NCBI GenBank assembly: GCA_001789965.1
Contig: MGBA01000021.1
Coordinates: 92,507 to 156,506, forward strand
Direction: 5' to 3'
Source of the DNA: Candidatus Roizmanbacteria bacterium RIFCSPLOWO2_02_FULL_40_13
GTDB taxonomy: Bacteria > Patescibacteriota > Microgenomatia > UBA1406 > GWC2-37-13
DNA: 64,000 nucleotides
Below the pieces are notes generated by a model. It was not told where the DNA came from, made no database searches, and saw only the letters and a program-made list of their open reading frames with translations. How positions within the stretch are numbered: position 1 is the first letter of the stretch; each line of letters opens with the position of its first letter. Positions 49,916 to 60,548 of the stretch are shown piece after piece. The translations under genes were made by a program, and so were the position numbers.

Positions 49916-50626
49916 ATGAAGAACGATATCTCTAAAAACGTGGAGAGACTCAGAAAAAACTCTTATTCTGGAAGGGGAATAGTCATGGGGCTTAATAAAT
50001 CCGGTGATTCTGCTGTGCAGGTCTATTGGGTCATGGGCAGAAGTGAAAATTCAAGAAATAGGATACTTGTGGAGCAAGATAATGTGGTCAGGACCGTCCC
50101 TTTTGACGAGAGCAAAGTAGAGGATCCCAGCCTTATAATCTACAATGCCTTGGTTCAGGTCGGCGACTCGCATATAGTCTCAAATGGCGATCAGATAGAC
50201 ACCATTGCAAACGGCCTTAGTAAACAGCAAACAATGGAGGAATCGCTCAAATCACGGACATATGAGTCTGACGAGCCAAATTACACACCTAGGATATCTG
50301 GAGTCGTAAAGCTTCGAGAAACGCCTGAGTTTACATTCGGCATTATAAGAAGAGAAGATTCTCCTGAGCCTATACGCCAATACTTTACGTTTTCCAAAGA
50401 AATCGAAAAGGGAATGGGTCACTGTATTCACACCTACAAAGAAGACGGAAATCCACTGCCGTCCTTTGACTCGGAGCCTTACATCGTTCCATTAGGTGAA
50501 AGCGCAAATGAAATAGCAAAGTTCTACTGGAATCTTCTCAATAAAGAGAATAGAGTAGGAATCGTGGCTAAAATCGTGGATTTAAAGACAAAGAAGGTAG
50601 ATTTTACCATCCTGAACCAACTTTAG
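49916..50626 (+). CDS. IMP cyclohydrolase, PurO-like family
   Basis: A 236-residue protein matching the IMP_cyclohyd family, the archaeal-type enzyme that closes FAICAR to IMP, as opposed to bacterial PurH. Recognised segments are GRGIVMGLNKSGDSAVQVYW, MGRSENSRNRI, DPSLIIYNAL, VSNGDQIDTI, EPNYTPRISGVV, and GMGHCIHTYKEDGNPLPSF. All are conserved blocks of the bacterial members as I remember them. No other purine gene lies nearby, so it stands alone behind its own promoter. The family call is firm. The in vivo reaction is inferred. Confidence 0.87.
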   Translation: MKNDISKNVERLRKNSYSGRGIVMGLNKSGDSAVQVYWVMGRSENSRNRILVEQDNVVRTVPFDESKVEDPSLIIYNALVQVGDSHIVSNGDQIDTIANGLSKQQTMEESLKSRTYESDEPNYTPRISGVVKLRETPEFTFGIIRREDSPEPIRQYFTFSKEIEKGMGHCIHTYKEDGNPLPSFDSEPYIVPLGESANEIAKFYWNLLNKENRVGIVAKIVDLKTKKVDFTILNQL

Positions 50627-50675
50627 TACTCAAAGTCCACTTAAAACTCGATTAGCCTCAAGACATATCTCATAG

Positions 50676-50681
50676 TATAAT
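50676..50681 (+). promoter_or_regulatory. -10 box, predicted leaderless
   Basis: TATAAT at 50676-50681 ends 6 nt before ATG 50688. The -35 is weak (TTAGCC at 50652, spacer 18). Confidence 0.45.
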
Positions 50682-50687
50682 ATAGGC

Positions 50688-51506
50688 ATGTTAGATCGTG
50701 AGAAAGAAAGTCTAGAACAATGGCCAACTTTATTTGAAAAACATATTTATAGCCTACCAATAGTTAGAGCGAATCCCGATAACGTTTTTATAGTACCGGA
50801 ACAATTTTTCCACATTCTTGGGAGGCCTGGCGCTCCTCGTATAACGAGAAGATATTATGGATTGCCGAGAAATGGAAAAGAATTTACAGGCACGGATATT
50901 CAGGCTGAGACTTCCTTTGAGTTGCGGAATGGAGTATACGTGCCAATCTCTATTGACCAAAATGGTGAAAATTACTGGGATCAGGCTACGCTATGGTTTA
51001 ATTCAGGAAATGGTTTGGTTAAGCCCGGGGAGATTCGCTATCAAGGTTATAAAAAATCGAAAACTCACCCCTTTGAAGAATTGATTGTCGTATACAATTC
51101 CAATGGAGAAGTGAGATTTATTTCTAGAAATCCAGGACGACTCGTTCACGATGGAGGAAGCGCTGTTTTAAGTAGAGACCCCAACCATGTGGACATTAGT
51201 AAATTGCTAGCAGGAGAAACTGTAGAGTTTCTATATGAAGGCCTTCTTTTTTCATACGAAGTTTCATTAGATCAGAAAGACGGACAAGTAGTCGTTAGAA
51301 GAAGGGATCCTCAATCAGAGGATAAGGTTAAATTCGATAAGCAAGTTTATAGGGAGGAGCTTCTTGAAGAATTGTTTGATCCTCAATTATTAGAAGAACC
51401 TTGGACTCTCGATACAACTTTAGATAGAAAATGGCGTGGCGCAAGTCTTCTTAGGGTGATTGGTGGAGAGTGGAAATCGATCAAGGATGGGCAACCTGAA
51501 GAGTAA
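50688..51506 (+). CDS. Hypothetical cytosolic protein
   Basis: 272 residues; no family recognised. It has no membrane segments and no cysteines, and is rich in aromatic, charged and Gly residues, with a likely beta-rich middle (about 60-200: RYYGLPRNGKEF, LWFNSGNG, PGEIRYQGYKKSK, EELIVVYNSNGEVRFISRN) and an acidic helical end (YREELLEELFDPQLLEEPW). The TATAAT box 6 nt upstream indicates a leaderless, separately transcribed gene. It lies between IMP cyclohydrolase and murC, but nothing ties it to either. Codon use is like its neighbours. Confidence 0.65.
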   Translation: MLDREKESLEQWPTLFEKHIYSLPIVRANPDNVFIVPEQFFHILGRPGAPRITRRYYGLPRNGKEFTGTDIQAETSFELRNGVYVPISIDQNGENYWDQATLWFNSGNGLVKPGEIRYQGYKKSKTHPFEELIVVYNSNGEVRFISRNPGRLVHDGGSAVLSRDPNHVDISKLLAGETVEFLYEGLLFSYEVSLDQKDGQVVVRRRDPQSEDKVKFDKQVYREELLEELFDPQLLEEPWTLDTTLDRKWRGASLLRVIGGEWKSIKDGQPEE

Positions 51507-55617: not shown

Positions 55618-56655
55618 ATGTCAGTTTATTTTTTCGCACTTCTCATATCCTTTGCATTAAATGCAGCACTGATCGTGCCTTTTATTGATTTTTTATACAA
55701 ACTTAAGTTTCAGAGAGCTCATCAACAGACAAAGGACGCGTTTAATAAGGCTACGCCGGTTTTTGACAAGTTTCACTCTCATAAAGCAGGTACGCCAGTA
55801 GGAGGTGGAGTGTTAACTGTTGTCACCACAGTATTCCTTTATGCCTTTCTACTCCTTCTTTTTGTGTTTTTTGATCGTCCGATTCAGTCTAACTACCCAT
55901 CGGTTATCGCAGAAATTAAAATTATTCTTTTTACGTTCATCAGCTTTGCCCTATTAGGAGTATATGACGATCTGAGCAAAATATTTTTTTGGAAAAAAGA
56001 CCAGTTTTTTGGGTTGCGACTCAGACATAAACTAATTTTTGAGACCGTACTTGCCTTTATTATTTCTTACTGGTTATTCCAAGAGTTAAAAATAGACATC
56101 ATTCACATTCCTTTTTTTGGAGTCTTTGAGCTCTCTTATTTTTACTTGATCTTTTCGACGTTTATAATCGTTGCTTTCGCTAACGCAGTTAATGTGACTG
56201 ATGGATTAGACGGTCTAGCCTCAGGCGTTCTTCTTATTGCACTTGCAGGATTCTGGATTATTTCAAGTTCTATTCTTGACGTCCCAACCTCTCTTTTTAT
56301 TGCTATTTGGCTCGGTGGCCTTATCGCGTTTCTTTACTTTAATATCTGGCCGGCACGTCTGTATCTTGGTGATACTGGAGCTCTTTCCTTTGGAGCAACG
56401 TTTGCAGTCATCGGTCTTATTCTTGGGAAGGCCTTTACTCTTTCTATCATGGGTGGAATTTTTGTTGTGGAAATAGCGAGTTCATTCGTTCAACTTATGA
56501 GCAAACGGTTTATGAAGAAAAAAGCATTTCCCGTTGCACCGCTTCATTTGTATTTACAGTACAAAGGTTGGGAGGAACCAAAAATTGTAATGCGTTTTTG
56601 GATTTTATCGGTCCTTTTTGCTATTTTTGGTCTAATGTTTGCGGTAATGAGGTAA
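55618..56655 (+). CDS. mraY: MraY phospho-MurNAc-pentapeptide transferase
   Basis: Integral membrane enzyme making lipid I from UDP-MurNAc-peptide and undecaprenyl phosphate. 345 residues and about ten helices. GVYDDLSK carries the conserved Asp pair, NVTDGLDGLASG the second Asp motif, and YLGDTGALSFGA the third. The GGG/His motif is seen as AGTPVGGGVL and AFPVAPLHLYLQYKGW. Its stop abuts the stop of the opposing murD gene with no bases between. Confidence 0.95.
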   Translation: MSVYFFALLISFALNAALIVPFIDFLYKLKFQRAHQQTKDAFNKATPVFDKFHSHKAGTPVGGGVLTVVTTVFLYAFLLLLFVFFDRPIQSNYPSVIAEIKIILFTFISFALLGVYDDLSKIFFWKKDQFFGLRLRHKLIFETVLAFIISYWLFQELKIDIIHIPFFGVFELSYFYLIFSTFIIVAFANAVNVTDGLDGLASGVLLIALAGFWIISSSILDVPTSLFIAIWLGGLIAFLYFNIWPARLYLGDTGALSFGATFAVIGLILGKAFTLSIMGGIFVVEIASSFVQLMSKRFMKKKAFPVAPLHLYLQYKGWEEPKIVMRFWILSVLFAIFGLMFAVMR

Positions 56656-58002
56656 TTAGGAAAGTTTTTTTACTTCTTCTTTAAATTGAGCTCCCCTATC
56701 TTCAAAATTCTTAAATAAACCAAAACTCGGCGAGCCAGGTGAAAGAAGACAAATGGTACCGGGTGAGCTAACCTCGGAAGCTCTAAGAACTGCTTCTTTC
56801 ATAGAGTTTACATGGTAAGTTGAGATGTCAGTTCTTTCTTTTTTCATTTCTTTTTCCATGAGCTTTCCGGTTTCAGGAAAAAGAATAAGATTTTTGATTT
56901 GGCTTTGTGCGGTTGTTTTTACTAATTTTTTCAAATCCTGATTTCTATTATGCCCGCCAGCAATGAGAGTCTCTACTTTATTTCCAAGTGCCTGTATCGC
57001 ATGAATAGCCGCTTCCGGAACACTAGCAATTGAATCATCATAATACCTAACTCCGTTTTTTTCAGCAACAAATTCGAGTCGATGCTCCAAAGGTTTAAAG
57101 TTGGCAATTCCTTTTTGAATCTGCTTTTTCGAAACACCTAAAAGATTTAAAACAAGTACTGCGGCAAGCGTATTTTCCAAATTGCCATGGCCAATAAGAG
57201 GGATAGATTTAACTGGCATTATTGAGATTTCTCCCTCTTCGTTTTTAAAGTAAATATTTTCGTCTTTTATAAAACAATTGGTCGATTGATCTTCGGAAGA
57301 GTAGGTATATTTTGTCGCCTGGGATTCCGAGATGAATTTATCAACTTCGCTATGTTTTGGATTGTAAATCATGAAATCTTCTTTTTTTTGGAACGTCAAA
57401 ATATTTCTTTTTGCCGCTACATAGTCTTCAAAAGAAGGGTGAACGTCAAGATGCCCCGGAAAAATATCAAGAAGAACCGCGATATGAGGTGAATATAAAA
57501 TATATTCAAGTTGAAAACTTGAGAGTTCAAGTACAAAAATTGTCGAGTCGTTGGAATCATTAATAAGATCTAAAGCCGGGAGTCCGATATTGCCGCCAAA
57601 ACGAACGTCATCATACTTTTCTTTTAAAATGGTGTGAATGAGACTCGAAGTGGTACTTTTCCCTTTCGATCCGGTTACACCGATTGCGACACCGGAATAA
57701 TTTTCAAAAAAAAGATTCATATGAGAGGTTATTTTTCCATTCTCTTTTAGATACTTTTGAATTTCAGGAAGACGTGTTGGTATTCCGGGTGACTTAATAA
57801 CCAGTTCAAACTCTGATAGATGCTTTAGGTAGTCTTTACCGGTATATTTGTTTTCTACTCCGAGAGGAGTGGGTGAAAGCTCCTGTTCATCGGCAACCGA
57901 GATCTTCACATCAGGAAAATACTTCGAGAGAAATTTGTGCGTGCTTTTTCCTTCTCTACCGTATCCTAGAATTAATACTTTTTTCGCAGAAAGATTTTTC
58001 AT
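56656..58002 (-). CDS. murD: MurD2-type UDP-MurNAc-L-alanine--L-glutamate ligase
   Basis: Mur ligase of 448 residues adding the second amino acid. N-terminal LGYGREGKST, ATP loop GVTGSKGKSTTSSL, ELSSFQLE, PGHLDVH, HRLEF and YYDDSIASVPEAA, IAGGHNRNQDL, LLSPGSPSFGLFKNFEDRG. The last three differ from standard MurD, which has NDSKATN, and resemble MurD2 of Xanthomonas, the L-Glu-specific form that works with MurL. It overlaps the upstream murL by 4 nt on the reverse strand, opposite to the rest of dcw. L-Glu specificity is inferred from the MurL partner and these motifs. Confidence 0.88.
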   Translation of the reverse strand: MKNLSAKKVLILGYGREGKSTHKFLSKYFPDVKISVADEQELSPTPLGVENKYTGKDYLKHLSEFELVIKSPGIPTRLPEIQKYLKENGKITSHMNLFFENYSGVAIGVTGSKGKSTTSSLIHTILKEKYDDVRFGGNIGLPALDLINDSNDSTIFVLELSSFQLEYILYSPHIAVLLDIFPGHLDVHPSFEDYVAAKRNILTFQKKEDFMIYNPKHSEVDKFISESQATKYTYSSEDQSTNCFIKDENIYFKNEEGEISIMPVKSIPLIGHGNLENTLAAVLVLNLLGVSKKQIQKGIANFKPLEHRLEFVAEKNGVRYYDDSIASVPEAAIHAIQALGNKVETLIAGGHNRNQDLKKLVKTTAQSQIKNLILFPETGKLMEKEMKKERTDISTYHVNSMKEAVLRASEVSSPGTICLLSPGSPSFGLFKNFEDRGAQFKEEVKKLS

Positions 58003-59375
58003 AGATTATTTGTGACTTCCTTTTTTAGGATTTCGGCAAATTCTAATGGTAGAAAATTTTGTTTATCCCAACCATTCAAAACTTCATGTTTTAAATCTTC
58101 AAGAGGAGTTTGATTTTGTGCTTCGACCTTCGCGGTTAGCTCTTCAAATAAAATAGGTTTTGTAAGATTCTGCTTTTCATATGCCTGATTGCTTAAAAGT
58201 ACTGCTAATATGGATTCTTTTTTAGTTCCCACGCATTCAAAAGGTTTGCTTTTAGCAAGACCCGTCAATTTATAAAAATACCCAGTAAGTTCCTTTTTTG
58301 CAAAGAGATCTTCATTAAAGATAGTCATAAGTTTATCGTAGGAGATGAATGGAAAAAGAGTAAGGTATGCAAATGCACATTTTGCGCAATTTTTACACCA
58401 GAGATCTTCATTCATGCCGACATTACAACTTCTAAACGATAAGTACTGTTGGGGGTAGTTTTTTAACATCTTTCCAATTTGAAGTTCGTAAAGAGGTCTC
58501 AAAAAACTAAAATAATTTACATCTGCCGTGATGAAAGTAGATATATATTCTCGAAATTTTTTCTCAAATTTGTAACTTTTTGAATACTGATGATTAATAG
58601 AAACACCTTTAAATATCGCACTTTCTTCATTTGCGCTTCTTTCATTGGAAACAATCACATTAGTAAAGCCGTTTAGCGCAGCTGTGCAGATTCCCATAAA
58701 TGCAAGAAAAGCTGAAAAGGGGGTGTGGCCATTAAGATAGCCGTTATTATTTAGCTTTAAAAGAAGAGGGTCTATCGTAGACGAAGCCTTAAGATTATCA
58801 GTAAATCCTGCATTTTTTGTTGTTTTTTCTACTGCAGGGTCAGATCCTACATGAAACGTGTTTTTCTCATGAGAAAGTTCTTTTAGTACTTCAAGCGTAA
58901 CGACTGATTCCTTACCTCCTCCTACAAGTATAAGGTCTTTCTTTGTGGTTTTCCATTTTTCCACAGGAAAGAGTGCTTTTTCTGAGTTTGAAGTAATCGT
59001 GAGAAAGCCGGGAATAGTAAAGTCGATGGCGTTAAGGTAAAAAAACTCTCCTAATCCGTTTAACAAAAGATCTTTCAACCAGTCGATTTGACGCGATTCA
59101 AGATTGCCGGCTTCAATATGAAAAGCGGGCGAACATGTCGCCTTCCAGTAACTGATTCCAATGACAAGTCCTATATGAAAAATAAGATTTTGAACCTGTT
59201 GATCGTCAAACTGTTCCCGCGACGGCAAAGTTATAACATGGGTGAATGAAAAGTCAGGTTCGGTTTTATACTTATACGACACTTCCAGCCGATGATCTTT
59301 TTTTACAGCTGAGTACGCTTGATAGATAAATCGAGGGTGGGCTCGTCGTAACTGATCGGTAGTTTTACTAGTCAT
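57999..59375 (-). CDS. murL: MurL UDP-MurNAc-L-Ala-L-Glu epimerase
   Basis: 458 residues matching the MurL family, described in Xanthomonas, which epimerises the terminal L-Glu of UDP-MurNAc-L-Ala-L-Glu to D-Glu in an ATP-dependent reaction. Recognisable blocks are the nucleotide loop LVGGGKESVVTLEVL near 170, VSNERSANEESA, NHQYSKSYKFE, FLRPLYELQIG, a cysteine cluster SFRSCN followed by LWCKNCAKCAFAYL, and KPFECVG. The length is the same as the Xanthomonas enzyme (about 455). It is translationally coupled to murD by a 4-nt overlap. A TAAAAT box lies 10 nt before its ATG, in a region shared with the divergent ftsW promoter. Confidence 0.88.
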   Translation of the reverse strand: MTSKTTDQLRRAHPRFIYQAYSAVKKDHRLEVSYKYKTEPDFSFTHVITLPSREQFDDQQVQNLIFHIGLVIGISYWKATCSPAFHIEAGNLESRQIDWLKDLLLNGLGEFFYLNAIDFTIPGFLTITSNSEKALFPVEKWKTTKKDLILVGGGKESVVTLEVLKELSHEKNTFHVGSDPAVEKTTKNAGFTDNLKASSTIDPLLLKLNNNGYLNGHTPFSAFLAFMGICTAALNGFTNVIVSNERSANEESAIFKGVSINHQYSKSYKFEKKFREYISTFITADVNYFSFLRPLYELQIGKMLKNYPQQYLSFRSCNVGMNEDLWCKNCAKCAFAYLTLFPFISYDKLMTIFNEDLFAKKELTGYFYKLTGLAKSKPFECVGTKKESILAVLLSNQAYEKQNLTKPILFEELTAKVEAQNQTPLEDLKHEVLNGWDKQNFLPLEFAEILKKEVTNNL

Positions 59376-59444: not shown

Positions 59445-60548
59445 ATGAGGATAAAAAAGGAAGTAAGAGCAAAAAAACTATCCTCTTTGATATTTATCCC
59501 CCTCACGCTTTCATTTATTGGTTTATTCTTTGTATTTGAGGCTTCGTCTGTAAAAAGTTTTAGTGAGGTAGGGAACAGCTTCCATTATTTCAAACTTCAG
59601 TTTCTTTGGATAGCTTTGGGAATCGGAGTTATGTTTTTCTTATCTTTTTTCGATTACCATAAATTTTACTATCTTTCATTTCCCTTGATGATGATGACCA
59701 TTATACTTCTCATCGTCGTCCTCATACCGGGCCTTGGAACTCAAGCCGGAGGAGCAAGGAGATGGCTTGATTTGGGTATTATCAATTTTCAACCAACTGA
59801 AATTGCAAAATTCAGCGTTATCGTATATTTATCTTCTTGGTTTATCCACAGGGAGCGGAAACGCTTTTTCTCTTTCGTGACACTTCTTGGGGCCTTGATC
59901 TTTCTGATTATACTTCAGCCAGATATGGGTACCGCAATAATAGTTTTCGCACTAAGCATCATCATTTATTTTCTCGCCGGAGTTGAACTTTCATATTTAT
60001 TTCTCCTTCTCCCGGTTTCATTTGCAGGATTTTTGCTGCTCATAAAAACCTCTCCTTATCGCTTCAGGCGGCTGAGCGCGTTTCTTGACCCATCGAGTGA
60101 CCCTTTAGGTATTGGATATCATGTAAATCAAATATTGATCTCGCTGGGTAATGGTGGATTACTTGGTCAGGGTTTTGGCGCCTCCCGTCAAAAATACCTA
60201 TTCCTCCCGGAAGCTCATACCGACTCCATTTTTGCAATTATCGGTGAAGAGTTTGGCTTTATTGGTGGATTTCTTTTAATCTTTGTTTTTTTTACTCTCA
60301 TGTATTATGTGTATCGCGTTTCTGCAGGTGCTCCTGACAGATATGGAAGACTCCTTACCGGAGGAATTTTTGCCTATTTCGCGCTTCAGATAATAATCAA
60401 CCTTGGTGGAGTGGTAGGACTGATGCCGTTAACAGGAGTTCCATTGCCCTTTATTTCATATGGAGGATCAAATCTTCTCGTTTCTTTTGCGCTCTTAGGA
60501 ATACTTTTAAATGTCGCAAAAAAATCAAAGAAGTTTACGGTACAATAA
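59445..60548 (+). CDS. ftsW: FtsW SEDS peptidoglycan polymerase
   Basis: Glycan strand polymerase of the division machinery, 367 residues and ten membrane helices. SEDS signatures are visible: GGARRWLDLGIINFQPTEIAK, QPDMGTAII, GQGFGASRQKYLFLPEAHTDSIFAIIGEE in pieces, and VVGLMPLTGVPLPFISYGGSNL. RodA is the alternative, but its place between murD/murL and murG with ftsQAZ following favours FtsW. The murG start lies 7 nt after its stop. Confidence 0.93.
   Translation: MRIKKEVRAKKLSSLIFIPLTLSFIGLFFVFEASSVKSFSEVGNSFHYFKLQFLWIALGIGVMFFLSFFDYHKFYYLSFPLMMMTIILLIVVLIPGLGTQAGGARRWLDLGIINFQPTEIAKFSVIVYLSSWFIHRERKRFFSFVTLLGALIFLIILQPDMGTAIIVFALSIIIYFLAGVELSYLFLLLPVSFAGFLLLIKTSPYRFRRLSAFLDPSSDPLGIGYHVNQILISLGNGGLLGQGFGASRQKYLFLPEAHTDSIFAIIGEEFGFIGGFLLIFVFFTLMYYVYRVSAGAPDRYGRLLTGGIFAYFALQIIINLGGVVGLMPLTGVPLPFISYGGSNLLVSFALLGILLNVAKKSKKFTVQ

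Follow-up and report, generated by a model that had tools for sequence, protein, structure and literature searches.

A route to D-glutamate that does without a glutamate racemase has been described in Xanthomonas. MurD2 adds L-Glu to UDP-MurNAc-L-Ala, and MurL then epimerizes the terminal residue to D-Glu with release of AMP. In X. oryzae, MurD2 and MurL are XOO_1320 and XOO_1319, respectively (Feng et al. 2017, reviewed in PMC8788868). At the positions D182, K348, A414, and L416 of E. coli MurD, X. oryzae MurD2 has E, R, P, and F, and the double change E197D/R358K yields a D-Glu enzyme (PMC8788868). The K319T variant of E. coli MurD accepts L-Glu, and the MurD of S. mutans has an Arg at position 348 (PMC8788868). 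Reviews describe MurL as a protein with no known conserved domains that uses one ATP, forms AMP, and works from L to D only. Activation of the α-carboxylate as an adenylate by MurL has already been proposed (PMC8788868). Published lists place MurL in rare actinobacteria and in some Gamma- and Alphaproteobacteria, and orthologues of low similarity are named for cyanobacteria, a fungus, and an amoeba; no earlier report of MurL in CPR bacteria was found in the literature searched. A 2024 paper (PMID 38558504), as cited in PMC11974145, reports racemase activity for another CPR lineage, and the supply of D-Glu in CPR is therefore a live question. Bacteria need D-Glu to build their wall, for which its supply is essential, and this supply is a drug target. 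The QueC family, with which MurL is compared below, carries an SGGxDS loop and a zinc-binding C(x)8CxxCxxC motif (PMC13329287). With ATP, QueC converts a carboxylate to an amide and then to a nitrile.

The window, that is, the whole stretch of 64,000 nucleotides analyzed here, comes from a CPR genome of the Microgenomates branch (925 kb, 94.3% complete). It contains a peptidoglycan and division (dcw) cluster in the order murC-murB-murA-dagK-mraY-[murD2 murL, inverted]-ftsW-murG-ftsQ-ftsA-ftsZ, and murJ, a class B PBP, and murE are also present in the window. The open reading frames of MurL (458 aa) and of the Mur ligase (448 aa) overlap by 4 nt at an ATGA junction, which is what translationally coupled partners would show. 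Both frames, their overlap, their reverse orientation, and the mraY and ftsW flanks are as the first-pass annotation had described them, and each of the motifs it quoted (VGGGKES, SNERSANE, NHQYSKS, WCKNCAKC, and KPFECVG) is found in MurL. The features of the locus are collected in Table 1. A scan for promoters and terminators at the locus gave no more signals than shuffled sequence. Just upstream of murC (49916–51506), the window also has a gene resembling IMP cyclohydrolase (PF07826) and, after it, a 272-aa ORF that belongs to no known family.

Table 1. Features of the murL-murD2 locus; positions are those of the window.
Feature	Position	Strand	Basis
MurL	57999..59375	-	NF041275 E 8e-75; 36-46% identity to MurL-like proteins; in almost all of 80 other loci, these adjoin MurD2
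PP-loop GGGKES, MurL residues 152-157 (GGGKDS in relatives)	58905..58922	-	alignments; aligned with SGGKDS of TtuA (E 3.5e-5) and SGGQDS of QueC
Cys4 motif C317, C327, C330, C333 (C-x9-C-x2-C-x2-C), predicted Zn site as in QueC	58377..58427	-	in register with QueC Zn motif
MurD2 ligase	56656..58002	-	TIGR01087 murD 363 bits, E 2e-108
MurD2 Arg353 (E. coli Lys348; X. oryzae MurD2 Arg358)	56944..56946	-	alignment; mutagenesis PMC8788868
MurD2 Ile325 (E. coli Lys319)	57028..57030	-	almost all linked MurDs have Ile or Leu; 28/30 unlinked have Thr
MurD2 Gly183 (E. coli Asp182)	57454..57456	-	departure peculiar to the window
MurD2 Pro425-Ser-Phe427 (E. coli A414-S415-L416; X. oryzae MurD2 P433, F435)	56722..56730	-	alignment
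mraY, convergent neighbor	55618-56655	+	TIGR00445 182 bits, E 1e-53; last base abuts murD2 end
ftsW, divergent neighbor	59445-60548	+	69 bp from murL start; other family members show the same position relative to ftsW

We put at roughly 0.84 the probability that this pair is a working MurL-MurD2 route to D-Glu, in which MurL is a QueC-type PP-loop epimerase, and that the pair came as a unit into the place of murD, in reversed orientation. The present analysis shows the identity of the genes, the specificity residues, the lack of MurI and class IV aminotransferase, the exclusion of MurI across genomes, the linkage and fusion of the two genes, and the resemblance in fold; the reactions and the AMP release are published for Xanthomonas. 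That these particular proteins are active, that an adenylate forms at their PP-loop, and that the pair is of horizontal origin is what we infer. The points counted against this reading are the 94% completeness of the genome, the presence of an asp_race-type racemase, the score of MurL below the curated cut-off, departures from conserved residues at MurD2 positions 182 and 321 and at MurL residue 156, an AU test on MurD that leaves a place among the unlinked MurDs unrejected, and a MurL-to-QueC profile match that by itself is no better than some unrelated short matches (see below).

The profile matches of the two frames to MurL and to murD are far beyond chance. The MurL profile search proposed in the first-pass annotation gave a match to NF041275 of 251.9 bits over residues 14–403. 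This is below the cut-off of 700 bits, which was set for Xanthomonadales; none of the CPR MurLs found here passes it. In an alignment of 74 MurL sequences, 30 columns are invariant, and the window MurL keeps all 30. It has Glu156 in the PP-loop where Asp is otherwise conserved, which is a conservative change; the loss of catalytic residues that would have spoken against MurL was thus not seen. The four Cys of the Cys4 motif are present in 74 of 74 sequences, 58 of which have the x9 spacing.

The ligase was aligned with E. coli MurD, with 93 other MurL-linked MurDs (21 from the family of the window and 72 from elsewhere), and with 30 unlinked MurDs of the family. At position 348 of E. coli MurD, 94/94 linked ligases have Arg and 30/30 unlinked ones have Lys (Fisher p 2e-29, for related sequences that are not independent). 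By E. coli numbering, the window ligase has R348, P414, F416, and I319. Where E. coli has Asp182, 85 of the 93 other linked MurDs have Glu, 8 have Asp, and the window ligase has Gly, so a Glu at 182 is, on these alignments, not strictly defining for MurD2. At position 321, the window ligase has Ser and other linked MurDs have Thr. A phmmer search with the window ligase gave about 240–340 bits for linked MurDs and at most 164 for unlinked ones; the exceptions are a divergent MurD of genome G038 (238 bits) and two linked frames truncated at contig ends. The divergent MurD (L186/L061, G038:C119) scores closer to MurD2 yet has Lys348, and G038 has no strong MurL; it is possibly an intermediate. 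In the MurD tree, the linked MurDs, that of the window included, cluster together (96% SH-aLRT), and the window ligase is placed next to those of Gottesmanbacteria and Curtissbacteria (93%). A placement of the window ligase basal to the unlinked MurDs is not rejected by an AU test (p 0.29), and we therefore let the residues and the linkage outweigh this tree.

The departures from near-invariant sites could also mean that the pair is altered, with changed or weakened activity through G182 and S321 of MurD2 and E156 of MurL, and that D-Glu or muropeptides are taken from a host. CPR bacteria are often symbiotic and have small genomes, which would fit such a dependence. However, the frames are intact, all invariant MurL residues are kept, and the genome has murA, B, C, E, G, and J, mraY, ftsW, and a PBP. 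Departures are equally frequent in several other MurL sequences, and the family of MurL paralogues described below tolerates SFGKDS and SFGKES alike. An altered pair is thus very improbable.

Other sources of D-Glu were looked for in the genome by family searches. At 94.3% completeness, it has no MurI (TIGR00067) above the cut-off, the sole match being an asp_race-type protein at 34 bits, and no class IV aminotransferase was found. There is also no second MurD; the other Mur ligase matches, which include murC and murE, reach at most 81 bits. The asp_race-type protein is the only member of the Asp/Glu racemase family in the genome. It adjoins a hisS-like gene (L001:1465-2166; G000:C1:62744-63385). 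With both catalytic Cys motifs and a TIGR00035 score of 150 bits (cut-off 93), this protein is what would speak for an ordinary, D-Glu-adding MurD that is supplied by a racemase, with MurL doing something else. In eight genomes of the family (G015, G028, G033, G040, G042, G043, G067, and G068), however, proteins of this type occur together with a separate MurI and so are no replacement for it in these genomes, and the asp_race protein is an unlikely source of D-Glu. The ligase itself has Arg348 and lies by sequence with the MurL-linked MurDs, and MurL and MurI exclude each other across CPR genomes (see below). We give this arrangement very little credence. The proposal that the organism bypasses glutamate racemase is supported by the missing MurI and class IV aminotransferase and by the MurD2 residues of the ligase.

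Among 333 sampled CPR genomes, in which MurI was counted at >100 bits, 50 have MurL, 101 have MurI, and none has both (Fisher p 4.5e-9). In the 72 genomes of the window's own family, the corresponding numbers are 26, 28, and 1 (G003). At these frequencies, the route is not unusual in CPR, contrary to the first-pass annotation. Of 35 MurL genomes from other loci (CPR, Bacteroidota, Bacillota, Acidobacteriota, and Pseudomonadota bins among them), none has a MurI above the cut-off, and one has a 79-bit match. The ligase search (E 1e-35) found a single MurD in 20 of 25 of these genomes. A scan of the collection gave at least 569 relatives of MurL; 80 were kept, and almost all of these have a MurD as the next gene. 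In three cases (L015 of G061, L098:8824-11484, and L115:6530-8851), MurL and MurD2 are fused in a single polypeptide of 774–888 aa with MurL first. Several phylum matches with open frames of 774–907 aa are probably further fusions. These sequence surveys indicate that many genomes of CPR, Bacteroidota, and Bacillota have MurL-MurD2 in place of MurI, a range much wider than the published list. A missing murI is, for this reason, no ground for inferring D-Glu auxotrophy. Other genomes of the family, including G001, G009, G031, G053, G057, and G058, have a canonical MurD and neither MurL nor MurI; some of the genomes with neither have a class IV aminotransferase, and others are without a recognized D-Glu source.

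The place between mraY and ftsW is filled in different ways in the family. It holds murD-murI in line (G016 and G024), murD with an inverted murI (G039), murD alone (G053 and G009), or murL-murD2 in line (G013, G037, G051, and G069). In G002 and G003, an inverted murL-murD2 abuts ftsW; in G001 and G006, of the same genus, this place is taken by a canonical murD in co-orientation. This comparison means that the canonical murD was replaced in place more than once. The idea that the pair is a later replacement of a standard murD is supported by these relatives, which hold a co-oriented murD or murD-murI in this place; the inverted orientation, in turn, is not the rule, since the dcw pair lies in line in most relatives examined.

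The MurL tree has two deep groups. One contains 21 members of the family (type A); the window, G002/G003, and G046 lie at separate places in the other. The AU test rejects a grouping of the window with type A (p-AU 2e-119) and rejects one with G002/G003 only marginally (p 0.04). The window MurL groups with Gottesmanbacteria and Curtissbacteria (99% SH-aLRT). Most MurLs of the family fall in the deep clade that does not include the window MurL, which makes a replacement by transfer likely on phylogenetic grounds. The inverted orientation could instead reflect a local inversion of a vertically inherited family pair, with no replacement from outside, and the four family genomes with the pair in line at this very place are in favor of this. 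These in-line pairs belong to the other MurL clade, however, the one from which the AU test separates the window, and the Gottesmanbacteria and Curtissbacteria affinity also argues against it. We consider a local inversion rather unlikely. Low GC was examined as a sign of transfer and set aside, the difference (0.34–0.37 against 0.38–0.40 nearby) being too weak. In the preferred reading, murL-murD2 would have entered the lineage as a unit and taken the place of murD between mraY and ftsW in reverse orientation.

The structure of MurL was predicted from the 74-sequence alignment (mean pLDDT 96.6, pTM 0.94). In this model, the GGGK(D/E)S loop lies between a strand (144–150) and a helix (155–164). 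The top three PDB matches in Foldseek are QueC (2pg3, E 3e-4), QatC (9y01), and QueC (3bl5), with E from 3e-4 to 9e-4 and a probability of 1.00. They are followed by TtuA (probability 0.91–1.00 in the best rows), MJ0690, Cap9, and MnmA; the lower ranks include some unrelated Rossmann proteins, mostly at low probability. The profile of the 74-sequence alignment matches TtuA through the PP-loop (E 3.5e-5). Taken together, the predicted fold and the profiles make it very probable that MurL is a PP-loop enzyme. In a direct hhalign comparison with QueC, E was 0.0045 for one sequence and 0.001 for 8 sequences, and the two motifs were aligned in register across 185–194 columns; two unrelated window proteins score about equally, over 16–34 columns. 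The PF06508 profile has no match to the window MurL and gives 12.5 bits for L091 (cut-off 22). Because the pairwise profile score does not exceed the controls and PF06508 does not match, QueC is only moderately likely, on the modeled structure, to be the nearest kin of MurL.

The PP-loop fold and the invariant QueC-like Cys4 motif suggest an AMP-forming activation of the glutamate carboxylate. In the mechanism we propose, MurL would invert the terminal L-Glu to D-Glu with ATP, in place of glutamate racemase. It would adenylate the α-carboxylate of the glutamate, which would acidify the Cα proton; this proton would be removed and returned on the other face. Hydrolysis would then release the product and AMP. 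As a QueC-type adenylating enzyme, MurL would have an explanation for how it works, and the PP-loop assignment offers a testable mechanism for an enzyme that has been described as without a known domain.

The same genome encodes a paralogue of MurL (L210:2142-3536; G000:C1:90141-91535) of 464 aa with SFGKES and WCQNCSKC and no Pfam match. The genes lined up in a row with it encode a fused amino-acid-ligase/D-Ala-D-Ala-ligase-like ATP-grasp protein, a PLP decarboxylase of the Orn/DAP/Arg type, and a GNAT protein. The same row of four genes is present in G041, and in G004, G005, and G022 two ATP-grasp genes lie next to the paralogue. The row may encode a peptide pathway that has no name so far and includes an epimerase.

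We lean towards a broader view, in which MurL would be an unrecognized QueC-like PP-loop enzyme that adenylates the C-terminal carboxylate of a peptide to epimerize it. It would be one branch of a wider epimerase family, to which the paralogue with its ATP-grasp ligases in the same genome would belong. With MurD2, it would form a third major route to D-Glu, spread by transfer through CPR, Bacteroidota, and Bacillota. The pathway itself is already known. To judge by the literature searched, the new points are how widely it occurs, the exclusion of MurI, the rule at position 348 in these lineages, the fusions, and the PP-loop/QueC-like assignment of MurL. Within these lineages, Arg or Lys at 348 is a one-residue discriminator between MurD2 and MurD; it does not apply everywhere, as the Arg in the MurD of S. 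mutans shows (PMC8788868).

The pair of the window can be compared with three known systems. Compared with canonical MurD and MurI, the ligase is of the same superfamily and its gene is at the same place in dcw, but Lys348 is replaced by Arg and the partner gene is murL, not murI. QueC (PF06508) and QatC/Cap9 (PMC13329287, PMC13279940) have in common with MurL the predicted PP-loop fold, an SGGxDS-like loop, a C-terminal Cys4 motif with CxxCxxC, and the use of ATP. In contrast to QueC, the MurL alignment does not contain the motifs YxQxHxxE, VPxRN, and YPDC, the first Cys of the Cys4 motif is spaced by x9 instead of x8, and there is an extra N-terminal domain; MurL would epimerize its substrate and not form an amide or a nitrile. 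The comparison with X. oryzae is based on the NCBI model and on residues taken from the literature, as the alignments contain no Xanthomonas sequence. The host here is a CPR bacterium, and the pair is inverted inside dcw. The window MurL scores 252 bits against the 700-bit Xanthomonadales cut-off and has Glu for Asp in the PP-loop, and the window MurD2 has Gly where that of X. oryzae has Glu197. Like MurD2 and MurL of X. oryzae, the two genes are adjacent in a genome where neither MurI nor a D-amino-acid aminotransferase was found, Arg358, Pro433, and Phe435 of MurD2 are matched, and MurL is homologous over 390 residues.
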